Of a stretch of 64,000 bases of DNA, positions 6,900-29,353 are shown piece after piece. The DNA lies in the NCBI RefSeq assembly GCF_900112675.1, contig NZ_FOMQ01000001.1:124001-188000 (forward strand), given 5' to 3'. A model generated the notes under the pieces. It did not search any database and had not been told where the DNA came from. It worked only from the letters and a program-made list of their open reading frames with translations. This DNA comes from Paracidovorax konjaci (GTDB lineage Bacteria > Pseudomonadota > Gammaproteobacteria > Burkholderiales > Burkholderiaceae_C). The position numbers were made by a program, and so were the translations under genes. How positions within the stretch are numbered: position 1 is the stretch's first letter; every line of letters begins with the position of its first letter.

Positions 6900-6915
6900 G
6901 GCTACCATCACTGCC

Positions 6916-7155
6916 GTGAAAAACGTCACCATCACCATGGACGACGCCGTGGCCGAATGGGTCCGCGTCGAGGCCGCGAAGCGCGGCAGCAGCGTCTCGC
7001 GCCTGCTGGGCGAATGGCTGGCCGAGAAAATGCGCCAGGAAGACGCCTATGCCCAGGCCATGCGCGAGGCGCTGGGCTTCGAATCGTGGGGTGCGTCGTC
7101 GCAGCCCTACCTCGCACGCCCCGAACTGCTGGATCGCGAGGGCCCGCCCGCATGA
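6916..7155 (+). CDS. VapB-like ribbon-helix-helix antitoxin
   Basis: The 79-residue protein begins with a short strand 'KNVTITMDD', then two helices ('AVAEWVRVEAAKRGSSVSRLLGEWLAEKM'). This is the ribbon-helix-helix DNA-binding pattern of CopG/Arc-type antitoxins, followed by a toxin-binding tail. The start is GTG at 6916, which keeps the DNA-binding beta strand; no clear Shine-Dalgarno is visible, so the mRNA may be nearly leaderless. Its stop overlaps the PIN toxin ATG by 4 bp. The palindrome at 6854-6899 is its likely operator. Confidence 0.78.
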   Translation: MKNVTITMDDAVAEWVRVEAAKRGSSVSRLLGEWLAEKMRQEDAYAQAMREALGFESWGASSQPYLARPELLDREGPPA

Positions 7156-7610
7156 GCGCCGATTCCGCACCGCTGTTCGTCGATACCGGCTTATTGCTCT
7201 CCAGCGTGGACGACCGCGACCCCGCGCGCCAGGCGCGCGCGCGGGAGTGGCTCGCGATGTGCTGGCAGACGCGCCGCGGCCGCATCAGTTCGCAGGTGCT
7301 CAACGAGCTGTACCACAACGCCGTGGCCTGCTTTCCCGGGCCGCAGACGCTGCACCTGGTGCGCGCGCAGGTGCGCCGCCTGCGCGTGTGGCAGCCCCCG
7401 CACCTGGATGCCTACACCGTCGATGGCGCCTGGGACCTGCAGGACCGCTACGGCCTGGGCTACTGGGACGCGCTCATCCTGGCCTCCGCGCACCAGCAGG
7501 GCTGCCGCCACGTGCTGGGTGACGTGCTGCCGCACGGCCGGCGCTACGACGCCGTGCTGGCCGTCAACCCGTTTCTCCTGGCTCCCCACGAACTGGAATC
7601 GCTCGCATGA
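7152..7610 (+). CDS. VapC-like PIN-domain toxin
   Basis: The 152-residue PIN protein keeps the four acidic positions expected for a metal-dependent RNase: Asp11 ('LFVDTGLLL'), Glu52 ('[11 protein letters not shown]'), Asp106 ('[11 protein letters not shown]') and Asp124 ('VLGDVLPHG'). VapC toxins usually cleave tRNA or rRNA and are held by the cognate antitoxin. The start overlaps the antitoxin stop (ATGA), and its own stop overlaps the hisC ATG (ATGA at 7607-7610). The toxin is thus wired translationally into the histidine operon. Confidence 0.82.
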
Positions 7611-11040: not shown

Positions 11041-12246
11041 TCAGCAGCCGGTCGGCGTGCGCCCCTGGTTCACAGCCGCCACGGTCTGCAGCAGGGCCGT
11101 CCAGTACGACGGCAGCGAGGACCACGGGTTGCCGATGTCGCGCACGGGGTCGTATTCGAGATCGGTCATGTACACCGGGCCGGCGTTGTAGAGCGCCGTC
11201 GCGGCGGACTGCACGGCCTTCTGCATGTCGGAGCAGGTGGCGGTGTTGTGCACCAGCGAACTCAGGCGGCTGTTGGCCACGTTGTAGAGCCAGGGCGTGG
11301 TGCGTGGGTCGTACGTAGCGTAGGTGCTGTTGCGGCCCTCGAAGGAGACGAGCACGTCGGCCACGTCCGCATAGCCGGCTGCGGGCACCATGCCGGGGTT
11401 GCCGATCACGCGCAGGCTGGTGTCCCTGGCCTTGATGTAGGCGTAGATCTCGCGGTAGAAGTCCAGGCGGGAGGTTTCCGACGCCATCTCGTCGAGGAAG
11501 ATGCCGCTGACCGTGGCACGCCCGTAGGTGGCGAAGTAGGCGTCGATGTTGGCCTTGATCGAGGCGATCGAGCGCGATCCGGTGCCGTAGCCGGTGTAGA
11601 CGTATCCCACCACCTTGCCGCCCGCGCCGGTGAACTGGTTGAGCGCGCTGACGTAACTGGCCTCCGCCGCGTCGAACTCTCCGTTGTCGGGGTTCAGGAT
11701 GGCGGTGACCGATACGCCGGGATTGGCCGCCGCGCCGCTGGCCATGCGGGCCCATTCGGTGCCCGAGGACGGGTGGAAATACGCCGGCACCAGCACCTCC
11801 AGCGCGGCCGGGGCCGGGCGCAGGTAGATGACGCGGGTGGCCGTCGCCGTGGCGGTGGCCGACTGCGCGGTGACCGACACCGAGGCGCTCAGCTGCTGGC
11901 GGCCCGTGGCATTGCCCGTGAGCGTGACCGTCGCCACGCCGGCGCGCGTGGTGCCCGTGGCGGTGAAGGTGCCGGGCGAAGCCGCGAAGCTGACGGACGT
12001 GCCGTCCGCCGCGGCTGCGCCGTTCACGGTGACCTGGGCACTCACGGCCAGCGCAGCGCCCGCGTTGAATACGGCCTCGGCTTCCGGCCCGGTGAAGGAG
12101 ACGGCGACGCTGGTGGTCGTCGGCGTGGTCGGGGTGGTGGGCGTGGAGCCGTCCGTGGTGCCGCCGCCCCCTCCGCCGCCGCATGCGGCAATCAGTGCGG
12201 CCAGGGACAGGCTGCACCAGCGGGCGATGTGTCGGGTTCGGGACAT
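11041..12246 (-). CDS. Spherulin-4 family (GH135-like) lipoprotein, copy 1
   Basis: The 401-residue protein has a lipoprotein signal (lipobox 'LIAAC', Cys22), a Gly/Thr/Pro-rich tether, an Ig-like beta domain at about 45-140 and a spherulin-4-type TIM-barrel domain at about 147-395 ('LEVLVPAYFHPS', 'AILNPDNGEF', 'VVGYVYTGYG'). In fungal Sph3 (GH135) the catalytic residues are an adjacent Asp-Glu and a later Glu. Here the matching positions appear to be Asp252-Glu253 ('GIFLDEM') and Glu303 ('SFEGRN'). It lies 143 bp after its paralogue at the end of the pel operon. The prediction is an envelope-anchored hydrolase of alpha-1,4-galactosamine polymer. Family placement is fairly firm; the substrate is inferred. 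Confidence 0.75.
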   Translation of the reverse strand: MSRTRHIARWCSLSLAALIAACGGGGGGGTTDGSTPTTPTTPTTTSVAVSFTGPEAEAVFNAGAALAVSAQVTVNGAAAADGTSVSFAASPGTFTATGTTRAGVATVTLTGNATGRQQLSASVSVTAQSATATATATRVIYLRPAPAALEVLVPAYFHPSSGTEWARMASGAAANPGVSVTAILNPDNGEFDAAEASYVSALNQFTGAGGKVVGYVYTGYGTGSRSIASIKANIDAYFATYGRATVSGIFLDEMASETSRLDFYREIYAYIKARDTSLRVIGNPGMVPAAGYADVADVLVSFEGRNSTYATYDPRTTPWLYNVANSRLSSLVHNTATCSDMQKAVQSAATALYNAGPVYMTDLEYDPVRDIGNPWSSLPSYWTALLQTVAAVNQGRTPTGC

Positions 12247-12389
12247 GGCAGGTTCCTCGGAGGAGGGGTTGTGTGGGAAAGCCGCGATTGTCTTCGCGCC
12301 GCCGCAGAGAAAGGCGCTTTCGCGCCCGCCGGCTCTGTAAAGTTTAGACACATTTGGCCCGCCCGGCATGGCGGAGGCTGCGGGGCGGC

Positions 12390-13598
12390 TCAGCAGGCGG
12401 GCAGGTCGGCGCCGCGGTTCACGGCGTCGACGGTGCCGAGGAAGCGCAGCCAGTAGCCCGGCAGGGTGTCCCAGGGGTCGCCCTCGCCGGTGTCGGGATT
12501 GAAGCTGTCGTCCGTCACGTAGAGAGAGCCCGTGTTGTAGCGCGCCGTGGCGGCGGTGCGCACGGCCTGCTGCATGGTGGCGCAGTCGGGCGCGTTGTGC
12601 AGCAGGGCGCTCTGCCGGGTGTTGGCCGTGCGGTAGAGCCAGCCGCCGCTGGCGCGCGGGTCGTAGCTGTCGAACTCCTTTGCGCGGTTCTCGAAGTTCA
12701 CCAGGGTGTCGGCCGCGTCCAGGTAGGCGGCATTGGAGAGGGTGCCCGGGTTGCCCACCACGCGCAGGCTGGCGTCCTTGCCCTTGATGTAGCCGTACAG
12801 GTCGCGGTAGTAGGCCAGCCGCTTGGCCTCGGTGGACATCTCGTCGATGAAGATGCCGCTGATCAGCCCGCGGCCGTAGAGGCTCAGGTAGCTGTCGATG
12901 TTGCGTTTCACGGTGCTGGCCGAGCGCGACCCGTAGCGCGTGTAGACATAACCCAGGAGCTTGCCGCCTGACTGCACGAACGTGGTGGCGGCCGCGGTGA
13001 ATTCGGGGTTCGCGCGGGTGAACACGCCATTGTTGGGGTTCAGGATGGCGGTGACCGCCACCGAAGGGTAGGCCCGCGTGCCGGCGCTCAGCGCACCCCA
13101 GGGCGAATCGCTGGAGGGGTAGAAATAGGCGGGCACCAGCACTTCGAGCGGTGCGGGCGCGGGCCGCGCATAGAGCGTGCGCGAGGCGCTGGCCGCCACG
13201 CCTGCCACCCCTTCGACCGAAACCGAGGCCGCGAGCGCCTGCGGCCCGGGCGTGGTGGCCATGAACGTGGCCGAGGCCGTGCCGCCGCCGACGGTGGCGG
13301 CCGTGGGTGCGAAGCTGCCCGAGCCGGCCGAGAACACGACCGCCGCCCCATCGGGAAGCGATGGCACCGCCACCGACACGGCAAGGGCGGTGCCGAGGTC
13401 GAATACGTCGCCCTCCGCCGGGGCCGTGAATGCCAAGGCCGGCGCGGCGGCGGCCTGGGCGTCTGCGGCGGCCTTGGCGGCAGGGCCTGCGTCTGCGGGG
13501 CCGGAGCCCCCGCCGCCGCAGCCGGCCAGCAGCCAGAGGGCGGAAAGGGCGCAGCACTGCAACGCGCGGCGCATCGATGGGTGAATCGTCTGGTCCAT
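12390..13598 (-). CDS. Spherulin-4 family (GH135-like) lipoprotein, copy 2
   Basis: A 402-residue paralogue of the next gene with the same layout: lipobox 'LLAGC' (Cys27), Ala-rich tether, Ig-like domain (about 52-145) and spherulin-4 barrel (about 150-398). The putative catalytic set falls at the same positions: Asp252-Glu253 ('GIFIDEM') and Glu303 ('NFENRA'). The start at 13598 has a strong GGGGAGGGG ribosome site. It begins 51 bp after pelG on the same strand, so it is most likely co-transcribed with pel. The two copies differ mainly in the tether, the Ig-like part and the final 40 residues, so they may cut different forms of the polymer. Confidence 0.75.
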   Translation of the reverse strand: MDQTIHPSMRRALQCCALSALWLLAGCGGGGSGPADAGPAAKAAADAQAAAAPALAFTAPAEGDVFDLGTALAVSVAVPSLPDGAAVVFSAGSGSFAPTAATVGGGTASATFMATTPGPQALAASVSVEGVAGVAASASRTLYARPAPAPLEVLVPAYFYPSSDSPWGALSAGTRAYPSVAVTAILNPNNGVFTRANPEFTAAATTFVQSGGKLLGYVYTRYGSRSASTVKRNIDSYLSLYGRGLISGIFIDEMSTEAKRLAYYRDLYGYIKGKDASLRVVGNPGTLSNAAYLDAADTLVNFENRAKEFDSYDPRASGGWLYRTANTRQSALLHNAPDCATMQQAVRTAATARYNTGSLYVTDDSFNPDTGEGDPWDTLPGYWLRFLGTVDAVNRGADLPAC

Positions 13599-13649: not shown

Positions 13650-15023
13650 CTACTGCAGCATGAAAGTTTCGTATTCGAGCCGGTTCAATTGGCGCGACAA
13701 CAGGTACATGCCGGTGCACAGCGTGAGCAGCGTGGCCACCGCGAATCCGTAGCCGTACAGCGCCGCACCCGTGTGCAGCGTGAAGCCCGTCAGCAGCACG
13801 TTGAGCACCACGAACTGCACGCACAGCAGCAGCACGATCCGGCGCTGGTCCAGGTAGAAGAACACGTTCAGGATGGCCATGAGGCCCACCTGCAGGCCGG
13901 CGCCGATCACCTGCACGTGCAGCAGCGGCAGATAGAGGCGGGAAATGCCCAGCCCGCTCAGGATGGTGGGCCCGGCGACGAACGTGATCAGCACGGCCAG
14001 GGTCTGGATCTTCGCGATCTCGCCCAGCCCCTGCTGGATCGAATAGACCATTTCATCGCGCATCGCCTCGATGTATTCGAGCGATCCGCCGCTGCGCACG
14101 GCGTCGTAGAACTTGTCGTAGTACTCGACGAAGTCGGTCTCGATGCGGACCAGGAACACCGCCATCCCGGGAATGATGGACAGGTAGGCCAGGAACACCG
14201 GCAGGTCGTAGATCAGCGAGGCGCGCAGCCCCCCGATGATGGGCTCCGACGTGGGCGGGAAGTACCAGAACATGAACTTGTCCACCCAGATGCCGAAGTT
14301 GTATAGGAACCCGATCGCCACCAGGGACGGGTAGAGCAGCTTCGCATCGGCGAAATCGAAGGCGATGATCCGGCCGCGCGGGTTGAACTCCCGCACCACC
14401 AGCAGCCACATGCCGGCCAGCAGCAGGTAATTGCCCAGCACGAACCCCGCGAGCAGGCCCTCCAGGCCCCAGGGGCGCATCAGCAGCGAGCTGACCACGA
14501 TGACCCCGTACGAGATGCCGAAAAGCGCCACGATGGCCTTGTAGCGCTTCATGCCCGAGAGCAGCACCGTGAGCACCCACACATCGCACATGAGCGTGAA
14601 GCCCGCCAGCATCAGCATGCGGTAGACCAGCCCCAGTTGGGGCAGCAGGAAGAAGAGCGCCAGCGATCCGAGACCCGCCGCGACGACGGTGGTGACCAGC
14701 ATCAGCCCGTGCAGGTTCGGCAGGATCGCGTCTTTGCGTTTCTCGAAGAGCCGGTCCGACACGAAGCGCGTGAACGCCAGCTGCACGAGGCCCGTGAGGA
14801 TGAGGCTCCCGGCCACCATGTAGGTGACCGAGGTCTGGAACTGCGTGACCAGCACGCCCGGCACCACCACGCTCGCGCTGAAGATACCGATGAGCAGGAT
14901 GCCCACGATCGAAAACACCCAGGGCCCCGAGCCGATCACGCCGGCGTAGGCGTAGGCCTGCACGAGGCCCACCAGGGTGTTCTTGCGCAGCATGCGCCGC
15001 AGCTCGAATCCAATGCCGGCCAT
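13650..15023 (-). CDS. pelG: Pel polysaccharide inner-membrane transporter PelG
   Basis: PelG is the MATE/Wzx-like integral membrane protein that works with PelD, PelE and PelF to synthesise and export Pel across the inner membrane. The 457-residue protein begins 'MAGIGFELRRMLRKNT', typical of PelG, and has about 12 hydrophobic segments. A cytosolic stretch 'RIETDFVEYYDKFYDAV' lies between segments. The start overlaps the pelF stop by one base (TGATG). The last gene of the canonical set, it is followed 51 bp later by the spherulin-4 genes. Confidence 0.95.
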   Translation of the reverse strand: MAGIGFELRRMLRKNTLVGLVQAYAYAGVIGSGPWVFSIVGILLIGIFSASVVVPGVLVTQFQTSVTYMVAGSLILTGLVQLAFTRFVSDRLFEKRKDAILPNLHGLMLVTTVVAAGLGSLALFFLLPQLGLVYRMLMLAGFTLMCDVWVLTVLLSGMKRYKAIVALFGISYGVIVVSSLLMRPWGLEGLLAGFVLGNYLLLAGMWLLVVREFNPRGRIIAFDFADAKLLYPSLVAIGFLYNFGIWVDKFMFWYFPPTSEPIIGGLRASLIYDLPVFLAYLSIIPGMAVFLVRIETDFVEYYDKFYDAVRSGGSLEYIEAMRDEMVYSIQQGLGEIAKIQTLAVLITFVAGPTILSGLGISRLYLPLLHVQVIGAGLQVGLMAILNVFFYLDQRRIVLLLCVQFVVLNVLLTGFTLHTGAALYGYGFAVATLLTLCTGMYLLSRQLNRLEYETFMLQ

Positions 15024-16561
15024 CAGCGGGGGCCCTCCGTCTGCTGGAACGCGTGTTCGTACACGCGGCGGTAGCGGTCGAACATGAGCGTGTCGGTGTA
15101 ATAGCGCTCCACGCGCGCCACGGCGGCGCGGCTGGCGTCCTGCCAGGCGGCCGCGTCGTTGATGAGCGAGAGCGAGGCGTCCGCGAGCTGCTGCGGGTCG
15201 GCGATGGGCACCACCTTGCCGGAGGCGCCGAGCGCGCGGTCTTCTTCGTCCAGCCCTTCGATGAGCTGTCGGCACGAGCCCACGTCGGTCGAGACGGCCG
15301 GCACGCCCGCTGCATAGCCTTCCAGCAGCACGAGCGGCAGGGCCTCGCTGATCGACGAGAGGATGATGAGGCCGATGCGCGGCATGAGGTCTTCCACTTT
15401 CTGGAAGCCGAGGAAGCGCACGTTGTTCTCCAGGCCCAGGCTGCGCACGAGGTTCTCGCATTCCTGCGCGTAGGCCGGGTCTTCCTCGGTGGGGCCGGCG
15501 ATCCAACCCTCGGCATCGGGGCGCTGGTTCACCACGCGGCGCATCGCGCGGATGAAGGTCTTGATGTCCTTGATGGGCACCACCCGGCCGATCAGGCAGA
15601 GGATGGGCGGCACCTCGGCGGGCCGTTGCGCGCGCAGCGGCGCGAAGCGCGCGAGCTTGATGCCGTTGGGGATGTTGAAGGTGCGCTCGGCCGGCGCGCC
15701 ATCGGCCACCTGCCGCAGCCGGTTGGCCTCGTAGAGCGCGATGATCGGGTCCGCGGCCGCATAGCAGTAGTAGCCCAGCCACTCGAAGAACTGGATCCAC
15801 ATCTGCCGGAAGTACGACAGCTCGGTGGGGTCGCGCTGGAAGATGTTGCGGTTGTCGCGGATCCACTCGCTCTTGAACAGGTCGATCTTGCGTTCCTTCG
15901 TGTAGATGCCGTGCTCCGAGAGGATGAGCGGCACGCTGCGCATCTGCTGCACCAGCCCGCCCAGGTAGCCGGCATAGCCGGTGGAGGCGCAGTGCACCAT
16001 GCGCACGCGCAGCATGCTCTTGGCGACGCGCGCGAGCATCCAGAGCGGCTGGTACATGATGCGCACGGTCCAGAAGTAGTCCACGAACGACGGATCGGTG
16101 CAGTGCTCGCGGTAGCTCTGGCAGATGATCTCCCACGCCCGCTCGCTGTAGAGGAAATCCTCCAGCGGCAGGCGCCCGCCGGGCTGCATCTCCAGGCTGA
16201 TCCGCTGGAAGGCCGCGATGGCCTCGGGGCTGCGGTTGCCGATGCGGAATGAATCGACCAGCGTGCGCACCATCTCGAGCGCCGCGCGGTCACCCTTGCG
16301 CCGCGCAGGCATCGACCGCACGCCGAGGTGGCCGTAGAGGTAGTGCTCCTCGAAATGCACCACGTTGGGCGGCAGCTCGTACTTGAAGCCCGAATAGTCC
16401 TCGCGCCGGCTGCCCAGGAAGATGATGGCGAAGCGGTATTCGGGGTAGGCGCGGATGACCTGGTTGATCCAGCTCGACACGCCGCCGCTCACGTAGGGGA
16501 ACGTGCCTTCGAGCAGCAGAGCGATGTCGGCTTCCTGGGCCTGCGGACGGGCGTCGCTCAT
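15023..16561 (-). CDS. pelF: Pel glycosyltransferase PelF (GT4)
   Basis: PelF is the cytosolic glycosyltransferase thought to polymerise UDP-GalNAc (and possibly UDP-GlcNAc) into Pel. The 512-residue product shows the GT4 start 'EGTFPYVSGGVSSWINQ', 'LSEHGIYTKERKID' in the acceptor domain, 'IGRVVPIKDIKTFIRAM' at the linker to the donor domain, and the EX7E motif in 'SEALPLVLLEG'. The ATG at 16561 was chosen because it overlaps the pelE stop (ATGA) and gives the normal N-terminus. Confidence 0.95.
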   Translation of the reverse strand: MSDARPQAQEADIALLLEGTFPYVSGGVSSWINQVIRAYPEYRFAIIFLGSRREDYSGFKYELPPNVVHFEEHYLYGHLGVRSMPARRKGDRAALEMVRTLVDSFRIGNRSPEAIAAFQRISLEMQPGGRLPLEDFLYSERAWEIICQSYREHCTDPSFVDYFWTVRIMYQPLWMLARVAKSMLRVRMVHCASTGYAGYLGGLVQQMRSVPLILSEHGIYTKERKIDLFKSEWIRDNRNIFQRDPTELSYFRQMWIQFFEWLGYYCYAAADPIIALYEANRLRQVADGAPAERTFNIPNGIKLARFAPLRAQRPAEVPPILCLIGRVVPIKDIKTFIRAMRRVVNQRPDAEGWIAGPTEEDPAYAQECENLVRSLGLENNVRFLGFQKVEDLMPRIGLIILSSISEALPLVLLEGYAAGVPAVSTDVGSCRQLIEGLDEEDRALGASGKVVPIADPQQLADASLSLINDAAAWQDASRAAVARVERYYTDTLMFDRYRRVYEHAFQQTEGPR

Positions 16562-17571
16562 CGGGCGTTCCAGTAGTCGAGCACCGGGCGCAGGCGTGGC
16601 AGGGCACGCCATTGGCCCAGCTCCTGCAGCAGCGCGCGCGCCTGCTCGAAGTCCTTGCGCTCGAAGCACAGTTCGGCCTGGTAGGGCAGCACGCGCGTGG
16701 CCGGCAGGCCCAGCTGGCGTGCGCGGGCATAGGCTTCGCCGGCTTCGGCGATCTGGCCCTGGGCATGCAGCAGGCGGCCGCGGCGCAGGTTGAGCTGCGC
16801 GTTGCCGGGCTCGTGCCCCAGCACCCTCTCGCAGTAGCGCAGCGATTCATGGATGGCGTGGGTGCGCAGATCGCCTTGCACGAGTTCCTGGTAGACCAGC
16901 TCCCAGTAGAGGTCGGAGAGCCGGTGGGCGGACTCCAGCGTCCGGGGGCCGGGCGTGGTGCCTTCTTCGGCCTCGGCACGGCGCAGCGCATCCAGCTCGC
17001 TGTCGATGGTACGGTTGATGCGTTTTTCCAGCGTGTCGAGCATGCCGTAGGCCAGCAGCCGCAGGTCTTCGCTCGGGTCGCTCAGCACGCTGCGCAGCAG
17101 CGGCGACGCGATGCGGCCCGACACGTGCTGCAGCGCCACCATGGCGCGCATGCGGGTCTGCATGGGGGCCTGGGCGTTGCCCAGGAAGGACCGCAGGCCG
17201 GCCTGGCGGAAGCTGGCCTGCATGCGCTGGTGCAGGTCGAATTCCGGCAGCTGCAGCGACTCGAAATCGTCCTGCCCCGTGGGCGATCGGTAGAGGCGCA
17301 GCACCACCACGGCCACCCCCACGCCCACGAAGCCGACGATGGGAACGGCATAGCTGAAGGCGGCCATGAGCCCCAGGATCGGCAGGCGCGGACGGGCCTG
17401 CTCGCCCGACAGCAGCGGCAGCAGGCACAGCGACAGCATCGCGCAGGCCAGCAGGTGCGCGAGCAGGTAGCTGGCCAGCGCGGCATCCGAGCGCCCCTGC
17501 AGCAGCACGGGCCCGCTCCACGCGCTGATTTCGAGCAGCAGTGCCGAGATGCCGAACTTCAGGTTAAGCAT
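16558..17571 (-). CDS. pelE: Pel inner-membrane protein PelE
   Basis: PelE is a membrane protein with cytosolic TPR-like helices that joins PelD and PelG in the inner-membrane synthase complex. The 337 residues hold two N-terminal membrane hairpin segments (about 25-60 and 65-95), then a helical cytosolic part with repeats in the final third ('LNLRRGRLLHAQGQIAEAGEAYARA'). Identity rests mainly on position between pelD and pelF together with this topology. The gene overlaps pelD by 8 bp and pelF by 4 bp. Confidence 0.9.
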   Translation of the reverse strand: MLNLKFGISALLLEISAWSGPVLLQGRSDAALASYLLAHLLACAMLSLCLLPLLSGEQARPRLPILGLMAAFSYAVPIVGFVGVGVAVVVLRLYRSPTGQDDFESLQLPEFDLHQRMQASFRQAGLRSFLGNAQAPMQTRMRAMVALQHVSGRIASPLLRSVLSDPSEDLRLLAYGMLDTLEKRINRTIDSELDALRRAEAEEGTTPGPRTLESAHRLSDLYWELVYQELVQGDLRTHAIHESLRYCERVLGHEPGNAQLNLRRGRLLHAQGQIAEAGEAYARARQLGLPATRVLPYQAELCFERKDFEQARALLQELGQWRALPRLRPVLDYWNAR

Positions 17572-18982
17572 GGGCGATCCTGTGCAGTTGCTCCAGCACC
17601 GCGAGCGGCGCGCCTTCGAGCGGCACCACGTGCGGGAAGATGCCGGATTCCGCCAGCGGCTGGCCGCTCTTTTGCTGCGACCAGTTCTCCAGCCGGTTGA
17701 TGTAGCCCTCGGCCGTGGCGAGGTCGCCCAGCGGCATGAGCAGCGCCAGCACCTGGCGCTCGGCGCCGGCGATCAGCCAGCTTTCGTCGAGTTCGCGCTT
17801 CAGGCGCTCGATCTGCGCGGGCAGGCCGCGTTCGATCGCGCGCGGCAGGAATTCCAGCGCCACGACGATGCTCGGCACGCGGGTGGTGTCGCGCATATGC
17901 GAGAGGCGCTGCACTTCGAAGGCGAAGTCCGCCGGACAGTCGGCGATCCGCTCCACGATGGGGCGTGCCAGGGTCTGCATCGCCAGGCCGTCGGTGTAGT
18001 AGCCGAGCAGCAGGTTGATGGTCTGCAGGTTCTCGTCCTGCAGCGAGAAGAACGGCATGTCTTCGATGACCAGCAGGCCGTAGATCTCGCCGCCCAGGTC
18101 CAGCAGCGGCGCGACGGCGAGGTAGCGGGTCTGCTGCCGGTGTTCGAGCAACTGGCTGATGTGGCAGAGCTTGCGCGTCTCCAGCGCCTGCACCACCAGC
18201 GGGTCGCGCGTGTCGAGCAGTTCGGTGTTGCTGCCGATGCGCGCCACCGGTTCTGCCTGCACCTCGTCCTCGGTGGCGGCATGCAGCGCGGCCGACTCGA
18301 GCTGGCAGTACTGCGCCAGCAGGCGCAGCAGCGTCTGGGCGCCCTGGACGGGGTCGTGTTCCTGGCCGCCCACGCTCTGCAGCGTCGCGAGCGCGTCGCG
18401 CATCGACATGGGCCGGCCGATCAGTTCCTGCTCCAGCCGGTCGTGGGACAGGCGCAGCAGGTAGTACTGGCGGACCAGATGTTCGAGCCGCTGGTCCAGG
18501 TAGAGCTGCACGCTCTCGGCGCGCCGCGTGCGCGCCTGCCAGAGGCTGGAGAACTCGCCCACGAGCAGCACGAGGATCAGCCCTCCCAGGAAGAAGAGCT
18601 GCGGAAAGCGGTCGTAGTGCCCGAAGTTGATCAGCAGCCAGCCGGCCAGCAGCACGACGGCGCCGCCCAGCCCGGCCAGCGGGCCATACCGCAGCGCCAC
18701 GATCACGGGCGCCAGCCATGCCCACGGGAAATCGCCTTCGCTCCACAGCGGATCCTGCGGGTGCAGCAGCACGCCGAGCGCGAGCGCGATGCCCGGCAGC
18801 AGCAGCGTCTCCAGCAGCATGATGGCCGGGCGCGTGTCGGTGGCTGCGAGCTTGCCGAGCAGATGCTCGGGCAGAGGACGCAGGCTTTTCTTGCCCGTGG
18901 CCTGGGGGGCGCCGGCCGGCGCCGCACCGACCGCGCGGCGGCGGGGGGAGGAGGACGAGGGGGAGGAAGTCTCCGGAGGCAT
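17564..18982 (-). CDS. pelD: c-di-GMP receptor PelD
   Basis: PelD is the inner-membrane c-di-GMP sensor that switches on Pel synthesis after transcription. From the ATG at 18982 it has 472 residues: a variable N-terminus, four clustered membrane segments (about 55-145), a short coiled region, a GAF domain (about 200-335) and a degenerate GGDEF domain to the end with no GGDEF motif. An RxxD sequence ('ERIADCP', about residues 345-348) is a candidate for the inhibitory-site motif that binds c-di-GMP in Pseudomonas PelD, but I could not align it securely. An alternative GTG start at 19000 would overlap pelC by 11 bp. Confidence 0.92.
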   Translation of the reverse strand: MPPETSSPSSSSPRRRAVGAAPAGAPQATGKKSLRPLPEHLLGKLAATDTRPAIMLLETLLLPGIALALGVLLHPQDPLWSEGDFPWAWLAPVIVALRYGPLAGLGGAVVLLAGWLLINFGHYDRFPQLFFLGGLILVLLVGEFSSLWQARTRRAESVQLYLDQRLEHLVRQYYLLRLSHDRLEQELIGRPMSMRDALATLQSVGGQEHDPVQGAQTLLRLLAQYCQLESAALHAATEDEVQAEPVARIGSNTELLDTRDPLVVQALETRKLCHISQLLEHRQQTRYLAVAPLLDLGGEIYGLLVIEDMPFFSLQDENLQTINLLLGYYTDGLAMQTLARPIVERIADCPADFAFEVQRLSHMRDTTRVPSIVVALEFLPRAIERGLPAQIERLKRELDESWLIAGAERQVLALLMPLGDLATAEGYINRLENWSQQKSGQPLAESGIFPHVVPLEGAPLAVLEQLHRIAHA

Positions 18983-18989
18983 GGCTGCG

Positions 18990-19544
18990 TCAGCGTGCAC
19001 CGGACAGGCCGGAATCCAGCAGATTGCGGATCAGCTTCTGCGCCACGCCCGAGAGCGACTCGCGGCTCCAGCCGCTCTTGCCGCCCGCGCCGCTCCAGAG
19101 GGTGTCGCCGGTGGCGACATCGATGATCTGCAGGGTCACGCCCGCGGCGGGTTCGCCGTCCACGCCGACCTTGTAGCGCCATTCGTCCACCGCACCGGTC
19201 AGCGCGTACTTGGCCTGCTGCTCGCGTGCCCAGGCCAGCACCTCGTCCTGGCGCTTGGCATCGCCCGCGTCGAACAGGGCCTCCTGCTGCGTGCTCGTGG
19301 GGTAGCGCTGCACGCGGCCCACGCCGCGGGCCTGCAGCAGGGCCAGCGTGATGGCTTCCGCGCGGTTGCCGGCCAGCGGCGTTTCGGTGTGGTTGGCGAA
19401 GGGCAGCACCACCCAGGTGGCATTGCGCTCCAGCGGCGGCGGCGTGCCGCGGTCGATGGTGGAGCACGCCGCGAGCATCACCAGGATCAGGCCTCCGGCT
19501 GCGCAGGTGCGCAGGCGTTGCAGCAGGGTGCGTGGATGTTGCAT
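18990..19544 (-). CDS. pelC: Pel outer-membrane lipoprotein PelC
   Basis: PelC forms a dodecameric lipoprotein ring under the outer membrane that guides the cationic polymer to PelB. The 184-residue protein has a lipobox ('MLAACS') and then a compact alpha/beta domain with 'WVVLPFANHTETPLAG', 'YALTGAVDEWRY' and 'LQIIDVATGDTLWSG', matching the family. The ATG at 19544 has a GAGAGGA ribosome site; the longer open frame upstream is the antisense of pelB. It is 43 bp after pelB. Confidence 0.92.
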   Translation of the reverse strand: MQHPRTLLQRLRTCAAGGLILVMLAACSTIDRGTPPPLERNATWVVLPFANHTETPLAGNRAEAITLALLQARGVGRVQRYPTSTQQEALFDAGDAKRQDEVLAWAREQQAKYALTGAVDEWRYKVGVDGEPAAGVTLQIIDVATGDTLWSGAGGKSGWSRESLSGVAQKLIRNLLDSGLSGAR

Positions 19545-19587
19545 GGGGGAGTCCTCTCTTCTTTGAAAAAACGGTTCGGTGTTCGGA

Positions 19588-22500
19588 TCAGAAATGCAGC
19601 CGGTAGCTGAAGAGCAGGCTGCGGGTGATGCCCTGCTGCAATTGCAGGCCGGATTTTCCGGTGCCCCAGGTGAGGCCCAGGTGGTCGCTGCCGAGCACGC
19701 TGCCGGCAACCCCCACGCGCAGCTCGTAGCCGGGCCCCAGCAGGCTGTGCCAGGTGCGGCTCACGCTGGCGTAGGGCCGCAGCCCCCGCGTGTACTCTTC
19801 CTCGTAGCGCATGTTGGTCGAGACCTGCAGCCCGTAGTAGCTGAAGCTGTCCGGGATGAAATAGTCCGGCCCCGGGATGAGGCCGGGCAGCAGGTAGCGG
19901 CGGTACTCCTGGTCGCGCGGCGAGAGCGCCGCCAGGTCGTTGCGCGAGAAGTCGTGGTGCGACCAGAACGCGCCGAATTCCAGCAGCGGCGCCTCCTGGC
20001 GGTAGGTGTGGGTATAGCTCAGCGTCGTGTGCCGCCCGCTGCCGAGGTCCGCGCCGGTCTGCAGGCGGTAGCGCTCGGCCGCGTACTCGACCATGAAGCG
20101 GTCCTGGCGCGTGGCCTGGTAGCGCAGGCTCGCGCCTGCGCGCTGCTTCATGCCCGCGATGCGCAGGGCCAGGCTTTCCTGGCTCGGCAGCTGCATGCCC
20201 AGTTCCATGCGCAGCGACAGGCGGTTGTCGATGCGCTGCTCGTGCTCGATCTGCACGGGCGTGTAGACCTGGAAGCTCACGCGGCGGCCGGCGCGCAACG
20301 TGGTTTCGCCGTCCGGATGGCGCCAGTGCAGGCGCGCGTCGAACACGCTTTCGTCGGGCGGATTCACCACGGTCAGCGGGTTGGACGACGTGCGGCGGAT
20401 GCTCGCGAAGTCCATGTCGAGCGCGAGCCGCGGGCTGAAGGCGATATGGAAGCGGCTGGCGCCCTCGTTCTCGTCCATGCCGCCCAGTTGCTGCAGCTTC
20501 ACGTAGCCGCCCGCGTGGTCGCTGAAGGCCAGCAGGCTTTCGGTGAGCTGCAGCTGCAGGGGTTCGTCCTCGCGCTGCTCGCCCTGCGCCTCGAAGGCCG
20601 CGCTCTGCGCCAGGCGCACATCGTCCACGGCACGCGCCGCATTGACGCGGTCGTAGCGCGGCAGACGCTCGTCGAACTCCTGCAGCAGTTGGCCGGTCGC
20701 GGCCTTGTCGTCCTCGGCCAGGGCCACGGTGATCTCCGCCCAGAGGGGGCGATTGGTGCGCTTGCCCTGGGCCTTGGCGTACTGGTGCCAGAGGAAGCCG
20801 CGCTCGGCCGTGTATTCGCCCGCGTCCTGGAGCCAGCCGATGGCGGTTTCCGCCGCGGCGTTGGACATGCGGTCGCGGTCGTCGGTGTCCAGTCGCAGCA
20901 ATTCACGCAGCACATCCAGTGCCGGATCGCCCGGCCGCTGCGTGAGCATGAGGCGCGCCCGCGCGATGCGGCGCGTGGTGTCCAGTCCCTCCTCGGTGAG
21001 CCAGCGCGCGCGGGCCTGCTGCGGGGTCAGCCGCTTGCCGGCCTCGCCCTGCCGCGCTGCACGCCATTCCCGCGAGAGCAGTTCCCGGCGCAGGCGCCAG
21101 GACCGGTCGACCTGCTGGTTCTGGTCCAGTGCATCGGCATAGTTCATGAGCCACAGGAAATCGTCCTGGTGCCGTGCGATGCGCGGAGTGAGGTAGCGCT
21201 CCAGCGCCACCTGCGGCAACGACAGCGCCTGGTAGGCGCCGGCCAGCGCATCGTGCACGTCTTCGTCGCGCGCCCACTGCCGCTCCTGTGTGGCGAGCAG
21301 CGTGCGCAGCGACACGGCATCGTTGCTGTCGATGAACAGCCAGATCAGCGCCTGCCGCATCTCGGACGAGTCGGGGCTGGCGCGCAGGCCGGCCTCGTAG
21401 TAGCGCCGCGCCTGCGCGAGGTCGCCCTGGTTCTGGTAGTAGCCGCCGGCCAGCCGCAGGAACTCGGGGATCGCCTGCAGACCGGCCATCGAGCGCTTGC
21501 TGGCTTGCGGGCTGGCGTCGATCTTGCGCAGCAAGGCCCCCATGGCGGCCCATTGGTTGCGGCTGGAATACACCGACAGCGCGTCCACGAGATAGCGCGG
21601 GTCGTCGAACTTCTCCCAGGCCAGCGCCGACACCTGGGCGGCTTCGAGCGGCTGGTCCACCATCAGCAGCCGGATCAGCGCGTCGTAGTCCGAGCGGTCG
21701 TGGTCCTGCGCGCGCACCAGCGCGCGGTAGGCCTTGACGGCAAGCGCCTGCCGCTGCCGGCTTTCGGCCAATTGGCCGGTCAGCCGCCAGAAATCCATCG
21801 CCGCCGCCTCCGTGGGCGCCTGGCGGCGCTGCGCGTCCTCCAGCCACTGCAGGCCTTCGTCCGGGCGGTCGTGCGTGAGGGCCAGCACGGCGGCGCGCAT
21901 CGCGCGCTCGGGCGTGAGCTGCTGCGGATCGGCCAGCAGCCGGCGCCAGGTGTCCAGCGCCAGCGTGGGCTGGCCGGCGCGCTCGGCCAACTGGGCCAGC
22001 AGTTCCACTGCGGCTGGGATCTTGCCGTGCTGCCGCAGGTAATCGATGGCGGGCTGCGGCTCACCGATGCGCTCGTAGGCCGCCACCAACTGCTGGATCA
22101 GCGGGAAGTCGTCGGGCCGCTGCCGCAGCTGGAAGCGGATGGCCTGCACCAGCGCCGTGTCGTCGAACTGCCCGGGCGCGATGCGCAGCACGGCCTGCCA
22201 GGCGGCATCCTTTTGCGTGCGCTGGGCGATGAACAGCCAGCTCTGCAGCGCGGTGCCCGGCCGCCGCGACCACTCCGACACCTGGGCGAGCCGCTCGCGC
22301 CAGGCCAGGTCGTCGGGCCGGGCCTGCACGGCGGCATGGGCGATGAGCCACGCGTCGTCGAGCTTGCGGTTCTCCAGGAAGACTTCGTAGGCCAGCGTAT
22401 AGATCTTCTCGTCGTAGGGCAGCAGGTGCGCGGGGATGGGCACGGGCGGTGCTGCTGCGGCCGGCGGGGCCGCTGCGGGCGCCGGCGCGGACGGTGCCGC

Positions 22501-23625
22501 GGAAGCGGGCGCCGCAGGTGCGGGACCGGCCATGTGCCACTGCCGCCATGCGCCTTCGGTCGATGCGTCGGCACCCGGCAATGCGGGGGGGCGCAGCCAG
22601 TGCGCTCCGTCGTCGTAGCGTGCCGCGGGTTCGGGGGACGGAGCCGGCGGTGGCGCGCCGTGCCAGGCCATGGGGCGCAGCATCGCGCCCACGGGCGGCA
22701 CGAGGGCCGCCAGCGCCGTGGAGCCCGCATCCTGCCACTGGTGCAGCCACGAAATGCGCAGGAGCTGGCGCACATAGCGGTCCGCCACCGCGGGCTTGCC
22801 GGCGGCGCGCGCCAGCTGGGTGATCATGAGCAGGATGTCGGGATCCCGGGCGAGCGGGCCGATCTCGCGCTCGGCCATCTCCAGCGCGGCCACCGGCCGG
22901 TTGCCCGATTGCAGCGTGCGCACGGCCGAGAGGTAGAACTCCTTGGCCTTGCCGGGCTCCGGCGTGACCTTGCGCGCGAGCAGGTAGAGCTCGGCGCTGC
23001 CGGCGTAGTCGCCCTGGCCGAGGGCTTCCTTGGCGGCGCGCTCGTAGAGCAGTGCGGCCTCGCGCGGGTCGGTGGCTTCCTCGGCCATCTTGCGGCTCAG
23101 GGCGGCGCCGAGCACCCGGTCCTGCAGCTCGGCGGCGCGGCGGGTCAGCACCAGGCGGCGCTCCAGCGGCCAGGGCTCGGCGGACAGCGCACGCAGTTGC
23201 CGCAGCAGGTCTTCGCGCATGGCCTTGCGGTAGGTGCCTTCGCGCTCGGGCGTGCGCTGGTATTCGGTGTATGACAGTTCCCAGAGCGCCCAGAGCGCAT
23301 CGCGGTGGATCTGCGGGTCGGGCGAATCCAGCGCGGGCTGCAGCGTGGCGCGCGCGTCGGCCATCTGGCCCACGGCGATCTGCCGCTGTGCCAGCAGCAG
23401 CCGCAGCCGCGGGTTGTCGGGGTCGCTGCGCAGCAGGTTGTGCAGGTAGGCCACGGACAGTGCCGAATTCTCCGTTTCCGCCAGGCGCCGCTCCAGATCC
23501 TGGCGCGGATAGAGCAGCCACAGCCCGCCGCCCACCATGCCGGCAAGCAGCGTGATCAGCCAGGGCGGCGCCAGGACGGGCCGTTCAGCGGCCTGGGCAC
23601 TGGAGCTGGATTTGCGCAGCAGCAT
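19588..23625 (-). CDS. pelB: Pel outer-membrane porin and TPR scaffold PelB
   Basis: PelB exports Pel through a C-terminal outer-membrane beta-barrel and binds PelA through periplasmic TPRs. The 1345-residue protein has an N-terminal membrane anchor (about 22-40), a long series of TPR-like helices (about 45-950), and a barrel ending in 'LLFSYRLHF' with the terminal Phe typical of BAM substrates. An Ala/Pro-rich linker near residues 365-400 splits the TPR region. It is longer than Pseudomonas aeruginosa PelB (about 1190 residues), mostly in that linker and the TPRs. Its 5' end overlaps pelA by 41 bp. Confidence 0.95.
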   Translation of the reverse strand: MLLRKSSSSAQAAERPVLAPPWLITLLAGMVGGGLWLLYPRQDLERRLAETENSALSVAYLHNLLRSDPDNPRLRLLLAQRQIAVGQMADARATLQPALDSPDPQIHRDALWALWELSYTEYQRTPEREGTYRKAMREDLLRQLRALSAEPWPLERRLVLTRRAAELQDRVLGAALSRKMAEEATDPREAALLYERAAKEALGQGDYAGSAELYLLARKVTPEPGKAKEFYLSAVRTLQSGNRPVAALEMAEREIGPLARDPDILLMITQLARAAGKPAVADRYVRQLLRISWLHQWQDAGSTALAALVPPVGAMLRPMAWHGAPPPAPSPEPAARYDDGAHWLRPPALPGADASTEGAWRQWHMAGPAPAAPASAAPSAPAPAAAPPAAAAPPVPIPAHLLPYDEKIYTLAYEVFLENRKLDDAWLIAHAAVQARPDDLAWRERLAQVSEWSRRPGTALQSWLFIAQRTQKDAAWQAVLRIAPGQFDDTALVQAIRFQLRQRPDDFPLIQQLVAAYERIGEPQPAIDYLRQHGKIPAAVELLAQLAERAGQPTLALDTWRRLLADPQQLTPERAMRAAVLALTHDRPDEGLQWLEDAQRRQAPTEAAAMDFWRLTGQLAESRQRQALAVKAYRALVRAQDHDRSDYDALIRLLMVDQPLEAAQVSALAWEKFDDPRYLVDALSVYSSRNQWAAMGALLRKIDASPQASKRSMAGLQAIPEFLRLAGGYYQNQGDLAQARRYYEAGLRASPDSSEMRQALIWLFIDSNDAVSLRTLLATQERQWARDEDVHDALAGAYQALSLPQVALERYLTPRIARHQDDFLWLMNYADALDQNQQVDRSWRLRRELLSREWRAARQGEAGKRLTPQQARARWLTEEGLDTTRRIARARLMLTQRPGDPALDVLRELLRLDTDDRDRMSNAAAETAIGWLQDAGEYTAERGFLWHQYAKAQGKRTNRPLWAEITVALAEDDKAATGQLLQEFDERLPRYDRVNAARAVDDVRLAQSAAFEAQGEQREDEPLQLQLTESLLAFSDHAGGYVKLQQLGGMDENEGASRFHIAFSPRLALDMDFASIRRTSSNPLTVVNPPDESVFDARLHWRHPDGETTLRAGRRVSFQVYTPVQIEHEQRIDNRLSLRMELGMQLPSQESLALRIAGMKQRAGASLRYQATRQDRFMVEYAAERYRLQTGADLGSGRHTTLSYTHTYRQEAPLLEFGAFWSHHDFSRNDLAALSPRDQEYRRYLLPGLIPGPDYFIPDSFSYYGLQVSTNMRYEEEYTRGLRPYASVSRTWHSLLGPGYELRVGVAGSVLGSDHLGLTWGTGKSGLQLQQGITRSLLFSYRLHF

Positions 23626-26455
23626 GGGTCAGACGGTAGGCAAGGACATCCGCGCCACCCGCGGCGGCGGCGGGCTGGCGTTCGGGGGCGAGCACGCGCT
23701 GGTCGGCGCGCACCTGGCAGCCGCGCGCATTCGCGAGGCTGAAGGCGATGGGGGCGTGGCCCTGCAGGCGGAAATCGGTGCGCGTACCGTCGGCCGTGGC
23801 GCTCCAGTCCGCAATGCGGGCGTTGGCTTCGAAAAGGTAGGGCGCGGGCTTGGTCGCCGGCGCGGGGGCGGAGGCCGGCGGCGCGCCCTCGGCCGCCGGG
23901 GGCGACGATGGCTCGGCCGTGCGCAGCCAGGCGGAGCCGCCCGTCAGGTGCACGTAGACCCCGCCCTCTCCGCTGCCGCGGTAGCCCGCCACGCCCTGGC
24001 TCGCCGCCACCTGGGGGGTGCCGAGCGCGGACGGCAGGCGCAGCGTGCGCAGTTCGCCGTCGCCGCGCACCCGCCAGCCACCGCCGTCGCGCGCGATGGC
24101 GATGGTGTGGAAGTCGCGCACCTTGCGGATGTATTCCGAGGCGAACACCGGGTGCAGCGGCTGCGCCACGGCCCAGTCGTACACCTTGCGCAATGCGTTC
24201 AGGCCGGCGCGCTTGCTGGTCGAGTACACGTGGTAGTAGATGTCCACGGCCTTGATGCGGCGGGGCTTCTCGGTCATCTCGAAGCTCTGCAGCACCTGCT
24301 CGAACCCGTAGTAGGGGCCGCGCCAGAGGTTGGTGTAGATGTTCTCGTTGGTGATGGGCGCATACACCTGGAGATAGCCGTTCTTCTGGATGCCGTGCGC
24401 GCCGATCGCCGTGAGCGAGGGGTTGGTGCGGGTGATGGACGTGTCGCCGCCGTTCATGTTGAGCAGTCCCGCGCGCTCGGTGATCTCCAGCGCCTCGGCA
24501 CTGGGGGCCGTGTCGCCCGACCACAGCAGGATCTTCACGCGCTTGTCGGGCGGCGCGAGGCGGCTGTTGATGTATTCGGTGGAACCCACGATCTCGCGCC
24601 GCAGGTCCATCGTGTAGCCCGGCACGTCCAGGCTCATCGCTGCCTCGGAGTTGTCGCTGAAGAGGCCATGGCGCACGCTGCGGTCCCAGAGGAAGGGGTG
24701 CGAATAGGTGTGGCTCGCCATCTCCACGTGCGGCAGGCGGAACATGCGCCGGGCGATGTCCTCCATCTCCGCGCTGGTGTCCGGGTGCAGGCCGTGGGGC
24801 GCCACTTCGGCTTCGATGACCGACATGGTCTGGGGCACCTGGGGGTATTTCTCGAAGATCTCCTTGAGCAGCACCTGGCCCGCATTGGGGCTGCCCGCGA
24901 GTTCCGCGCGGGAGGGGAAGCCGTCGCCGTCCACGTGCGAGAACAGCAGGCGGCGGCCGTTCTCGGTGGTGACGTCGGGCATGGGCAGCGGCTGCAGCCG
25001 CAGCGACTGCGTGAGGAAGGCGAAGGGGTCCACCATCCAGCGCGCGTAGTCGGTGCCGGGCACTTCCGTCACCACGAAGGGGTCGGTCACGAAGCCGCCC
25101 CAGGGCAGGATCGCGCCGCCGATGTAAGAGCCCCCGCGCGCATCGCGGTGCTCGATCAGCGCCCGGGCCGGCTGCTGCACGGGGGCGCCGTTGCGCAGCA
25201 CCCATTCGAAGCGCGACCCGCTCGAAGGCTGCACCGCCAGCTCGAAGCCCATCATCGGGTCCTGCGTGGCCACCTGCTGCTCGCCGCGCGGCGGGCTCGC
25301 GTTGCCCTTGATGCCCAGCGCGTCGTTGAACTGGCGGTCCAGCGCGAACCCGAAGTTGCCCATCACGGCGACCGGGGTGCGCTCGGCGAGCCGTGCCAGC
25401 ATCCATTGGCTCACGGTGCGCGTGCGCGCCTCGGGCAGGAAGCCCGAGAACCAGGTCACGATGCCGGCGTAGCGGTCCTGCAGGATGCCCTCGGGCAGCG
25501 GGTTGCGCACGTCGGCGTAGTCCACCACGTAGCCCATGTGGTTGAGCGGCATCTGCAGGAACCGGTGGGCCGACGAATAGTTGAGCGCCGGCGATTCGCC
25601 ACCGTAGTACACGATGAGCACGCGGCGGGGCGCCAGCTCGACCGTGCCCACGCCCACGGTGCGCACGTGGCCGTCGGTCACCCACGGGATGATGCCCAGC
25701 GCCTTGATGCGCTCGGCCGTGGCACGGGAGAGCTCCCGGTCGGTGGGCGGCACGTAGTCGATGGCCATCACCGGCAGGCCGTCGCGCTCGCGGATCGTGC
25801 GCAACTGGCCGAGCAGCCATTCGCGGTCGGCAGCCTTCACCTCCTCGTAGCGGCGGGTGCCGGCATTCCAGCCGCGGAACAGCGATTCGGCGGCCACCAT
25901 CTGGACCTTGTCCTTCACGCGCGGCACGATCTCGAAGCCGCGGTTCAGGATGAGCCGGATGCCCGGATACCGCTGGTGCAGCGTCTCGATCACGCGCACC
26001 AGCCCCTGCTGCTGGGCGGCCTCGTCGAACTGCTTGGCCAGGCGGTAGGAATCCAGCGTGTCGAGGAAGAAGCCGCGGTAGCCGCGCTCCCAGAGCGGGC
26101 CCACGACGCGCGTGGCAAAGAACTCGGGCCAATCCGCGGGGGTCTGGTCGACCACCTCGGAGTTCCAGGCGCCGTTGCGGGCCATCTTCCAGGCGTCGGG
26201 AATGTCGCGGAAATAGGCGCGGGAAGACTGCACCTCGGCCACCGACACATAGGCGTAGAGCGCACTGCCGGTCTTGGCGAAGGCCTGGGGGTCATAGCCG
26301 TGGTCGGGCTCCACGACCACGATGTCGAAAACCTTCAGCTCGGCCAGCGGTGCCGAGGGGCCGTAATGCAGGGCCACGGCTGGCAGGCCAGCCCATGCGG
26401 CCGCGCACAGCTGCAGGCAAAGGCAAAAAAACAACGATCTTAGGCGTCTGGGCAC
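23585..26455 (-). CDS. pelA: Pel hydrolase and deacetylase PelA
   Basis: PelA is the periplasmic modification enzyme of the Pel system. The 956 residues start with a signal peptide (about 1-22), then a glycoside hydrolase TIM barrel (about 25-290; 'FDIVVVEPDHGYDP', 'GFFLDTLDS', and Glu190 in 'VAAESLFRGW' as candidate acid). A reductase-like middle domain (about 275-440) precedes a carbohydrate esterase region where Asp509 ('SHVDGDGF'), His582 and His586 ('ASHTYSHPF') match the deacetylase metal site. A C-terminal beta domain follows, with a Pro/Ala linker near 850-870. First gene of the operon, it is preceded by a structured leader. Confidence 0.95.
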   Translation of the reverse strand: MPRRLRSLFFCLCLQLCAAAWAGLPAVALHYGPSAPLAELKVFDIVVVEPDHGYDPQAFAKTGSALYAYVSVAEVQSSRAYFRDIPDAWKMARNGAWNSEVVDQTPADWPEFFATRVVGPLWERGYRGFFLDTLDSYRLAKQFDEAAQQQGLVRVIETLHQRYPGIRLILNRGFEIVPRVKDKVQMVAAESLFRGWNAGTRRYEEVKAADREWLLGQLRTIRERDGLPVMAIDYVPPTDRELSRATAERIKALGIIPWVTDGHVRTVGVGTVELAPRRVLIVYYGGESPALNYSSAHRFLQMPLNHMGYVVDYADVRNPLPEGILQDRYAGIVTWFSGFLPEARTRTVSQWMLARLAERTPVAVMGNFGFALDRQFNDALGIKGNASPPRGEQQVATQDPMMGFELAVQPSSGSRFEWVLRNGAPVQQPARALIEHRDARGGSYIGGAILPWGGFVTDPFVVTEVPGTDYARWMVDPFAFLTQSLRLQPLPMPDVTTENGRRLLFSHVDGDGFPSRAELAGSPNAGQVLLKEIFEKYPQVPQTMSVIEAEVAPHGLHPDTSAEMEDIARRMFRLPHVEMASHTYSHPFLWDRSVRHGLFSDNSEAAMSLDVPGYTMDLRREIVGSTEYINSRLAPPDKRVKILLWSGDTAPSAEALEITERAGLLNMNGGDTSITRTNPSLTAIGAHGIQKNGYLQVYAPITNENIYTNLWRGPYYGFEQVLQSFEMTEKPRRIKAVDIYYHVYSTSKRAGLNALRKVYDWAVAQPLHPVFASEYIRKVRDFHTIAIARDGGGWRVRGDGELRTLRLPSALGTPQVAASQGVAGYRGSGEGGVYVHLTGGSAWLRTAEPSSPPAAEGAPPASAPAPATKPAPYLFEANARIADWSATADGTRTDFRLQGHAPIAFSLANARGCQVRADQRVLAPERQPAAAAGGADVLAYRLTHAAAQIQLQCPGR

Positions 26456-26580: not shown

Positions 26581-26780
26581 ACGACACAATGAACATTTCA
26601 TAGAAAAAAACAATCTGCTACATAGTTTCGATATTGCCCGATTCTGTCGCACTTTCATGGCGATGGGATTCTTGGTGCAGCATCTGGACAGTGGGCTTTC
26701 CGCCCCGCGGGAATCCAGCGGCCCACAATGCCGCTGGTACGCAGGCCATCTTCGGCCGGATTCACCAGGGAGTTCAGCGC
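26581..26780. other. Divergent pelA / epimerase promoter region
   Basis: With the leader this makes a 325-bp gap. The segment 26581-26640 is strongly AT-rich, unlike its surroundings, and probably holds both promoters. On the plus strand TTTCAT and TACATA are 17 bp apart (about 26596-26624) as a candidate -35/-10 for the epimerase gene. No open frame on either strand looks coding. Confidence 0.45.
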
Positions 26781-29201: not shown

Positions 29202-29353
29202 GGTGCAAGGCAGAAATGGGCAATGGATCCCCCGGCGCTCTCCTTGCGCCGTTTCAGGGTGGCGCATTGTCGTTCAATCCCTGCCGCGTTCCAGGGCCTT
29301 GCCGCGCCGCTTTTGAGGCACCGCAAGGCGGCCCGACTCCTACAATCCAGCAC

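Follow-up and report, generated by a model that had tools for sequence, protein, structure and literature searches.

What would a bacterium whose pel operon already encodes a hydrolase do with two more, of a kind characterized in a fungus? This question is raised by a 64,000-nucleotide stretch of Paracidovorax konjaci (contig NZ_FOMQ01000001.1, positions 124,001 to 188,000; hereafter the window), in which the pel genes are followed by two genes, here called sphA and sphB, that encode lipoproteins with a spherulin-4 barrel. Pel is widespread as a biofilm polymer; in Gram-negative bacteria its pathway has a built-in hydrolase in the form of a PelA domain (PMC12022489). With a probability that we put at about 0.72, SphA and SphB are active hydrolases of an N-acetylgalactosamine (GalNAc) polymer that serve the cell's own Pel. 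Judged from sequence and by analogy with fungal Sph3, they would most likely act as lipid-anchored endo-alpha-1,4-N-acetylgalactosaminidases that trim under-deacetylated Pel beside PelA, with both activity and location being predictions. More broadly, a group of soil and plant bacteria end their pel operon with one or two lipoproteins of family GH135, which suggests a second Pel trimming step.

Both proteins are members of GH135 by sequence and have the Sph3 fold in predicted structures. They match PF12138 (Spherulin4) over the entire profile (positions 1-239 of 239), with 163.6 and 164.6 bits against a cut-off of 30.2 (E < 1e-47), and are the only matches in their own genome, while 0 of 14 control genomes had any. 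Aspergillus clavatus Sph3 (5c5g/5d6t) is the best PDB sequence match for each (E 1.1e-16 for SphA and 1.1e-14 for SphB), and the same two structures head the Foldseek results for both AlphaFold2 models (E 9.9e-15 and 3.7e-14; target template modeling scores 0.78 and 0.80). The models have a mean predicted local distance difference test score of 86.5 (SphA) and 87.8 (SphB), with the barrels mostly above 90. SphA is composed of a signal peptide, a lipobox (LLAGC, followed by GGGG), a beta-rich spacer at about 56-145, and the GH135/Spherulin4 barrel at 152-390, and SphB of a signal peptide, a lipobox (LIAAC), a beta-rich spacer at about 47-143, and a barrel at 150-389. In each protein the residue at +2 of the lipobox is Gly and not Asp, as expected of an outer-membrane lipoprotein (by eye and by pattern), a Gly-rich stretch follows, and the barrel spans about 250 residues. 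The spacer, which had escaped the original prediction made for this DNA, covers roughly 90-100 residues between lipobox and barrel; it gave no Pfam match in the profile search, and in our own reading it appears immunoglobulin-like.

The putative catalytic residues D252, E253, and E303 carry identical numbers in SphA and SphB, and in the sequence alignment D252-E253 and E303 of both proteins fall on the catalytic Asp-Glu and Glu of Sph3. In both models, D252 closes the strand 246-252, E253 comes next, and E303 lies within the strand 298-305. D252 and E303 never vary across 32 sequences, SphA and SphB among them, and E253 is conserved in at least 90%. The Sph3 residues aligned to D252 and E303 are 56 apart by hand count, which fits Asp166/Glu222 as the catalytic pair of Sph3. 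PMC12054363 gives the pair as Asp196/Glu222. The original prediction had placed both proteins in GH135/PF12138, proposed the Sph3 fold, and set these three residues at the Sph3 catalytic positions; profile and fold searches bear out the first two, its residue numbering is correct in both proteins, and the alignment agrees on the third.

The operon to which the two genes appear to belong has a complete core, with pelA through pelG in order on the minus strand, followed by sphA and sphB (Table 1); pelC and pelE gave general profile matches only and are named from their operon position. The open reading frame coordinates agree with the two same-strand paralogous genes that had been predicted, with sphA 51 bp past pelG (which ends at 13650) and sphB a further 143 bp on. 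The reading frame of sphB is open far upstream, and its lipoprotein start at 12246 is nonetheless clear. A search of the pelG-sphA gap returned 0 promoter-like sites and one terminator-like site, on the opposite strand, against 0.9 expected, so nothing above chance level would split sphA from pelG. PelA residues 26-914 align with the solved PelA structure 9cgy, and the hydrolase and deacetylase motifs both look intact. A degenerate PelA hydrolase replaced by the Sph proteins is ruled out because the PelA motifs align with the solved enzyme.

The association with pel extends to other genomes. Our family sample comprised 299 genomes from 141 genera, and PelG was counted above the profile cut-off; matches below it were dropped (two in the family sample, G108 and G223, and four in the phylum sample). 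Spherulin4 was present in 36 genomes, PelG in 41, and both in 26, against about 5 expected by proportion (Fisher p 5e-19); at the genus level the counts were 19, 22, and 12 of 141 (p 2e-7). Fifteen of the 41 PelG genomes, among them the source of the window, have Spherulin4 immediately 3' of pelG and on its strand; in one further genome (G141) an assembly break separates the two. Spherulin4 is present in every one of the 19 genomes whose PelG shares at least 68% identity with that of the window, a grouping drawn post hoc from the 37 of 41 PelG genomes that were compared (G164, G244, G049, and G032 lie outside the comparison); among the other 18 compared, with PelG at 46-58% identity, 4 carry it. 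The retrieved set of Spherulin4 loci excludes those of G187 and G024. In the phylum sample (n=349), Spherulin4 was found in 8 genomes, PelG over cut-off in 26, and both in 6, five of which come from the family of P. konjaci itself. A scan of named genomes covered 78 loci from the best 80 of 119 relatives, and is biased toward linked loci, having been queried with linked sequences because the first wide alignment yielded no searchable pattern; within it Spherulin4 adjoins pelG in 28/78 and pelA in 2/78, and the nearest loci include Paracidovorax cattleyae, anthurii, citrulli, and oryzae. Linked gene pairs share a strand in 59/59 cases, and tandem copies occur in 13/46 linked loci (some genomes counted twice in both figures); the distance from pelG to the first copy is 45-311 bp, measured match to match. 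A chance neighbourhood of sph and pel is ruled out by these surveys, and the pel neighbourhood that the original prediction expected elsewhere is present, with the refinement that Spherulin4 is not strictly tied to pel.

A different arrangement is seen in Zoogloea, where two genomes carry Spherulin4 about 270-370 bp upstream of pelA on the same strand (match to match). Z. ramigera has Spherulin4 and pelA each at a contig end, which fits the same order without proving it. In a sample of the Zoogloea family (n=101), Spherulin4 occurs in 4 genomes and PelG in 9, and all 4 have both (p 3e-5). The Zoogloea copies end in PEP-CTERM-like tails by eye, with L163 and L172 below the Pfam cut-off and L157 without a match; PF07589 exceeds its cut-off in Methyloversatilis L142 and Nitrotoga L150, which makes 2/9 proteins above cut-off, 4 below, and 3 with no match. 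These PEP-CTERM results are from Pfam only; a regular expression gave false matches. It is not certain that the Zoogloea linkage is independent of the pelG-side linkage. In L172 (4886-11912), sph-pelA is preceded at a distance of a few kb by hisA, hisF, and genes that look tat-like by eye. This recalls the window, whose pel block interrupts the histidine operon between hisA and hisF (hisF by eye). Because the L172 sph-pelA pair also lies a few kb after hisA-hisF, a single ancient sph-pel association is possible.

Comparison of the barrels offers insight into which copies kept their active site. The tree was built from 116 barrels after L147 was dropped (<200 residues, with a frame that leaves the family before E303). 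A single clade of 72 rows (support 100/100) takes in all 48 pelG-side copies along with 8 hisA-side and 16 unlinked ones; the Zoogloea copies are placed outside the Comamonadaceae clade. Within that clade, C339 is near-constant (56/59 linked rows), and another cysteine occurs at or near the C terminus. The catalytic trio is intact in 59/59 linked and 12/12 hisA-side rows (some genomes counted twice), and 7/64 other rows deviate: two have Gln for E253, one is the L147 frame departure, and four are paralogues in G225, G294, G085, and G226, one with D252 changed to Gly and three with E253 changed to Gly and E303 also lost. Taken together, these counts suggest that the active site has been maintained beside pel, with decay in some of the copies that lie elsewhere. 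The sequences of L070, L072, L073, and L074 (Table 1) make these four likely pseudo-enzymes; the same status is ruled out for the linked copies, which keep the trio throughout. G225 and G294, the genomes of L070 and L074, also retain a pel-linked copy with intact residues. The existence of such pseudo-enzymes, along with the lipid anchor, spacer, barrel, and duplication, would suit a non-catalytic role for SphA and SphB, in which these lipoproteins bind Pel and tether it to the cell, but the full catalytic set in every linked row, with the four clear losses all in unlinked paralogues, leaves this explanation highly improbable. Barrel net charge averages -2.3 in linked copies and -9.4 in the others, and is uninformative on substrate because it is too variable.

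Several observations weigh against enzymes dedicated to the cell's own Pel. The pelG-side copies are not independent and probably reflect one gain, since they form a single clade. Outside the close PelG group, 7/22 PelG genomes have Spherulin4, none of them adjacent to pelG, and in genome G128 pel adjoins hisA with no sph gene. Spherulin4 occurs without PelG in 10/36 genomes of the family sample and in 8/20 hand-picked named genomes, the remaining 12/20 having PelG. In 3/4 Zoogloea-family genomes Spherulin4 and the pel genes lie apart, and copies from Methyloversatilis, Planctomycetota, and Verrucomicrobiota show no close pel gene within flanks of up to 10 kb, except for a weak PelA-like match about 5 kb away in L143. 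We infer co-transcription of sphA and sphB with pel from spacing alone, and sphB, 143 bp past sphA, may have its own promoter. With the PelA hydrolase apparently intact, a second hydrolase is not obviously needed. Finally, fungal Sph3 cuts re-N-acetylated Pel but not native Pseudomonas aeruginosa Pel (PMC9135694).

The genomes with Spherulin4 and no PelG would also be expected if the enzymes attacked a foreign polymer, such as fungal galactosaminogalactan or a neighbour's Pel, and stood beside pel by chance, next to hisA. In line with this, sph has stayed by hisA in Delftia acidovorans and C. composti, about 17 kb from pelG, G219 and G289 show the same separation at about 16.5 kb, and Sph sequences have changed more quickly than those of the pel genes (46-60% identity to the window proteins, versus 74-86% for PelG, at 11 linked loci of other genera). 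Such an origin, however, would leave unexplained the constant strand and short distance past pelG in the family and named-genome surveys, the presence of Spherulin4 in every genome of the post hoc close PelG group, and the position at pelA in Zoogloea, and we consider it unlikely.

If SphA and SphB do serve the cell's own Pel, the biochemistry of Sph3 offers a guide to what they might cut. Sph3 is specific for poly-GalNAc (PMC9135694, PMC11356417), and the PelA hydrolase tolerates galactosamine (GalN) (PMC9135694). A GalN-GalNAc repeat makes up most of native Pel, and about 18% of the oligosaccharide ions are fully acetylated (PMC9135694). Sph3 breaks aggregates of Streptococcus intermedius, whose Pel is GalNAc-rich (PMC12345266). 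Because PelA is apparently intact and Sph3 cuts only acetylated polymer, the likeliest job for SphA and SphB would be on acetylated polymer. In the scheme that we propose, the two proteins would be made along with the Pel machinery, given the position of sphA, routed via Sec/Lol, and most likely anchored through the lipid in the outer membrane, a location that, like the side, is judged only from the lipobox, while the spacer would keep the barrel away from the membrane. The barrels would cut poly-GalNAc stretches left un-deacetylated by PelA, which would limit chain length, release soluble polymer, and clear under-modified Pel; alternatively, if deacetylation of this Pel is less extensive, they would tune chain length. 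The PelA hydrolase domain would work on the partly deacetylated chain in the periplasm, a division of labour that we infer.

The original prediction had cast the pair as surface-anchored Pel hydrolases for trimming, release or dispersal, which we read as cutting of mature, partly deacetylated Pel outside the cell. The Gly at +2 of the lipobox agrees with this, as do the PEP-CTERM tails of some relatives, which suggest surface export, and the finding that PelA hydrolase activity makes the secreted Pel form in P. aeruginosa (PMC9894940). Fungal Sph3, however, freed nothing from native Pel (PMC9135694), and fails to disrupt P. aeruginosa Pel biofilms (PMC12345266). A bacterial enzyme could differ, and we regard dispersal of mature Pel as doubtful though still a serious candidate; by analogy with Sph3, acetylated stretches, or a Pel with less deacetylation, would be a better-fitting target. 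Our odds for the various readings do not sum to one because dispersal shares the core claim and differs in substrate and place. A more tentative extension of own-Pel trimming is an acetylation checkpoint, in which a poly-GalNAc-specific enzyme might destroy Pel missed by the deacetylase and only cationic Pel would stay on the cell. It is similarly speculative that labour would be split as in the fungal cluster, with GH135 for acetylated and the second hydrolase for deacetylated polymer.

The closest known counterpart is Aspergillus Sph3 (GH135), the endo-alpha-1,4-N-acetylgalactosaminidase of the galactosaminogalactan cluster, with which SphA and SphB share family, fold, and aligned catalytic residues. 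As predicted for SphA and SphB, Sph3 has its membrane anchor on the N-terminal side, and like them it is clustered with an epimerase, a synthase, a deacetylase, and a second hydrolase. Sph3 is needed for polymer synthesis in A. fumigatus (PMC11356417). SphA and SphB differ in being bacterial lipoproteins with a spacer in place of the Sph3 transmembrane helix and in occurring as two copies within a pelABCDEFG operon. The locus had been predicted to match the fungal gene set; this holds for functions (epimerase, synthase, deacetylase, GH135, second hydrolase) but not for lineage, as the synthase, deacetylase, and second hydrolase here are Pel-type (PelF, PelA), a judgement made with no search by Agd3 or Gtb3 profile. 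The epimerase also adjoins pelA in L036 and L051, and most other retrieved loci end before that point.

The hydrolase domain of P. aeruginosa PelA (GH166; 5tcb, 9cgy) resembles SphA and SphB in pathway, expected linkage cut, and related barrel (PMC12054363), but is a separate family, fused to the deacetylase, periplasmic, and present in the same operon. Gram-positive PelAh (Bacillus cereus BCE_5582) and SIR_1591 of S. intermedius likewise come from hydrolase genes beside pel and act on the polymer (PMC7112168, PMC12345266), but these are PelA-like or DUF4832-type and occur where PelA has no hydrolase domain, which is retained here. Actinobacterial agd3-type clusters contain a gene annotated as Spherulin-4 in a bacterial GalNAc-polymer cluster, and Gram-negative agd3 clusters carry pel outer-membrane genes (PMC7229062); those clusters were found through the Agd3 (CE18) deacetylase, whereas the machine here is the standard Gram-negative PelA-G. 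The word spherulin is absent from the main text of a pel operon survey (PMC7112194), and searches of an open-access library turned up no description of a GH135 gene belonging to a pelA-G operon. Spherulin-4 genes in bacterial agd3 clusters and hydrolases beside Gram-positive pel are thus already in print, and GH135 in a standard pelA-G operon is apparently new. If our interpretation is true, a fungal-kind second hydrolase conserved at the operon end would add a processing step in a group of genera, and the role of acetylation could be tested by comparing two hydrolase families within one operon. The resemblance to the fungal galactosaminogalactan cluster, which has been proposed to be of bacterial origin (PMC7229062), would become stronger, and the operons would be a source of bacterial GH135 enzymes; the characterized GH135 member named in PMC12054363 is fungal.

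Table 1. Positions of sphA, sphB, and neighbouring genes in the window, and of four unlinked Spherulin4 genes in their own loci
Feature	Sequence	Position	Strand	Remarks
sphB	window	11041..12246	-	401 aa; paralogue of sphA, same architecture
sphA	window	12390..13598	-	402 aa; open reading frame and PF12138
pelG	window	13650..15023	-	PF16933, E 2.8e-157; start chosen at MAGIGF; final core gene
pelF, glycosyltransferase	window	15023..16561	-	DUF3492 (PF11997) and glycosyltransferase group 1; start chosen
pelE	window	16558..17571	-	TPR match; named from operon place
pelD	window	17564..19000	-	GAF and PelD_GGDEF (PF16963)
pelC	window	18990..19607	-	named from operon place; LpoB-type match barely above cut-off; start provisional
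pelB	window	19588..23625	-	TPR and outer-membrane barrel (PF24604)
pelA	window	23585..26455	-	hydrolase domain and deacetylase; 9cgy E 2e-188, 5tcb E 1.9e-48
galE-like NAD-dependent sugar epimerase	window	26634..27797	+	divergent from pelA; start provisional
SDF-type dicarboxylate transporter	window	27867-29267		within his-operon insertion
aldose-1-epimerase-like gene	window	29174-30226		within his-operon insertion
Spherulin4 lipoprotein	L070	9939-11123		unlinked; catalytic residues lost
Spherulin4 lipoprotein	L072	9478-10677		unlinked; catalytic residues lost
Spherulin4 lipoprotein	L073	9046-10188		unlinked; catalytic residues lost
Spherulin4 lipoprotein	L074	9447-10604		unlinked; catalytic residues lost

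Some further features of these loci were observed. The planctomycete Spherulin4 protein of L143 (9755-11011) has a dockerin match barely above the cut-off and a PEP-CTERM match below it, and dockerin matches below the cut-off occur in L149 and L165. In Nitrosomonas communis (L181, 11345-14899), pelG is followed by two consecutive PelA-like matches, of which the first spans the hydrolase part only; this is perhaps another case of an added hydrolase ending a pel locus. In the window, the histidine operon is interrupted between hisA and hisF (10141-31121) by the pel block together with the epimerase, the SDF-type transporter, and the aldose-1-epimerase-like gene, and pel adjoining hisA is also seen in related genera. 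A second interruption of the same operon (5383-7610) places a MocR-type GntR/aminotransferase regulator and a PIN-domain gene between hisD- and hisC-like genes (by eye).

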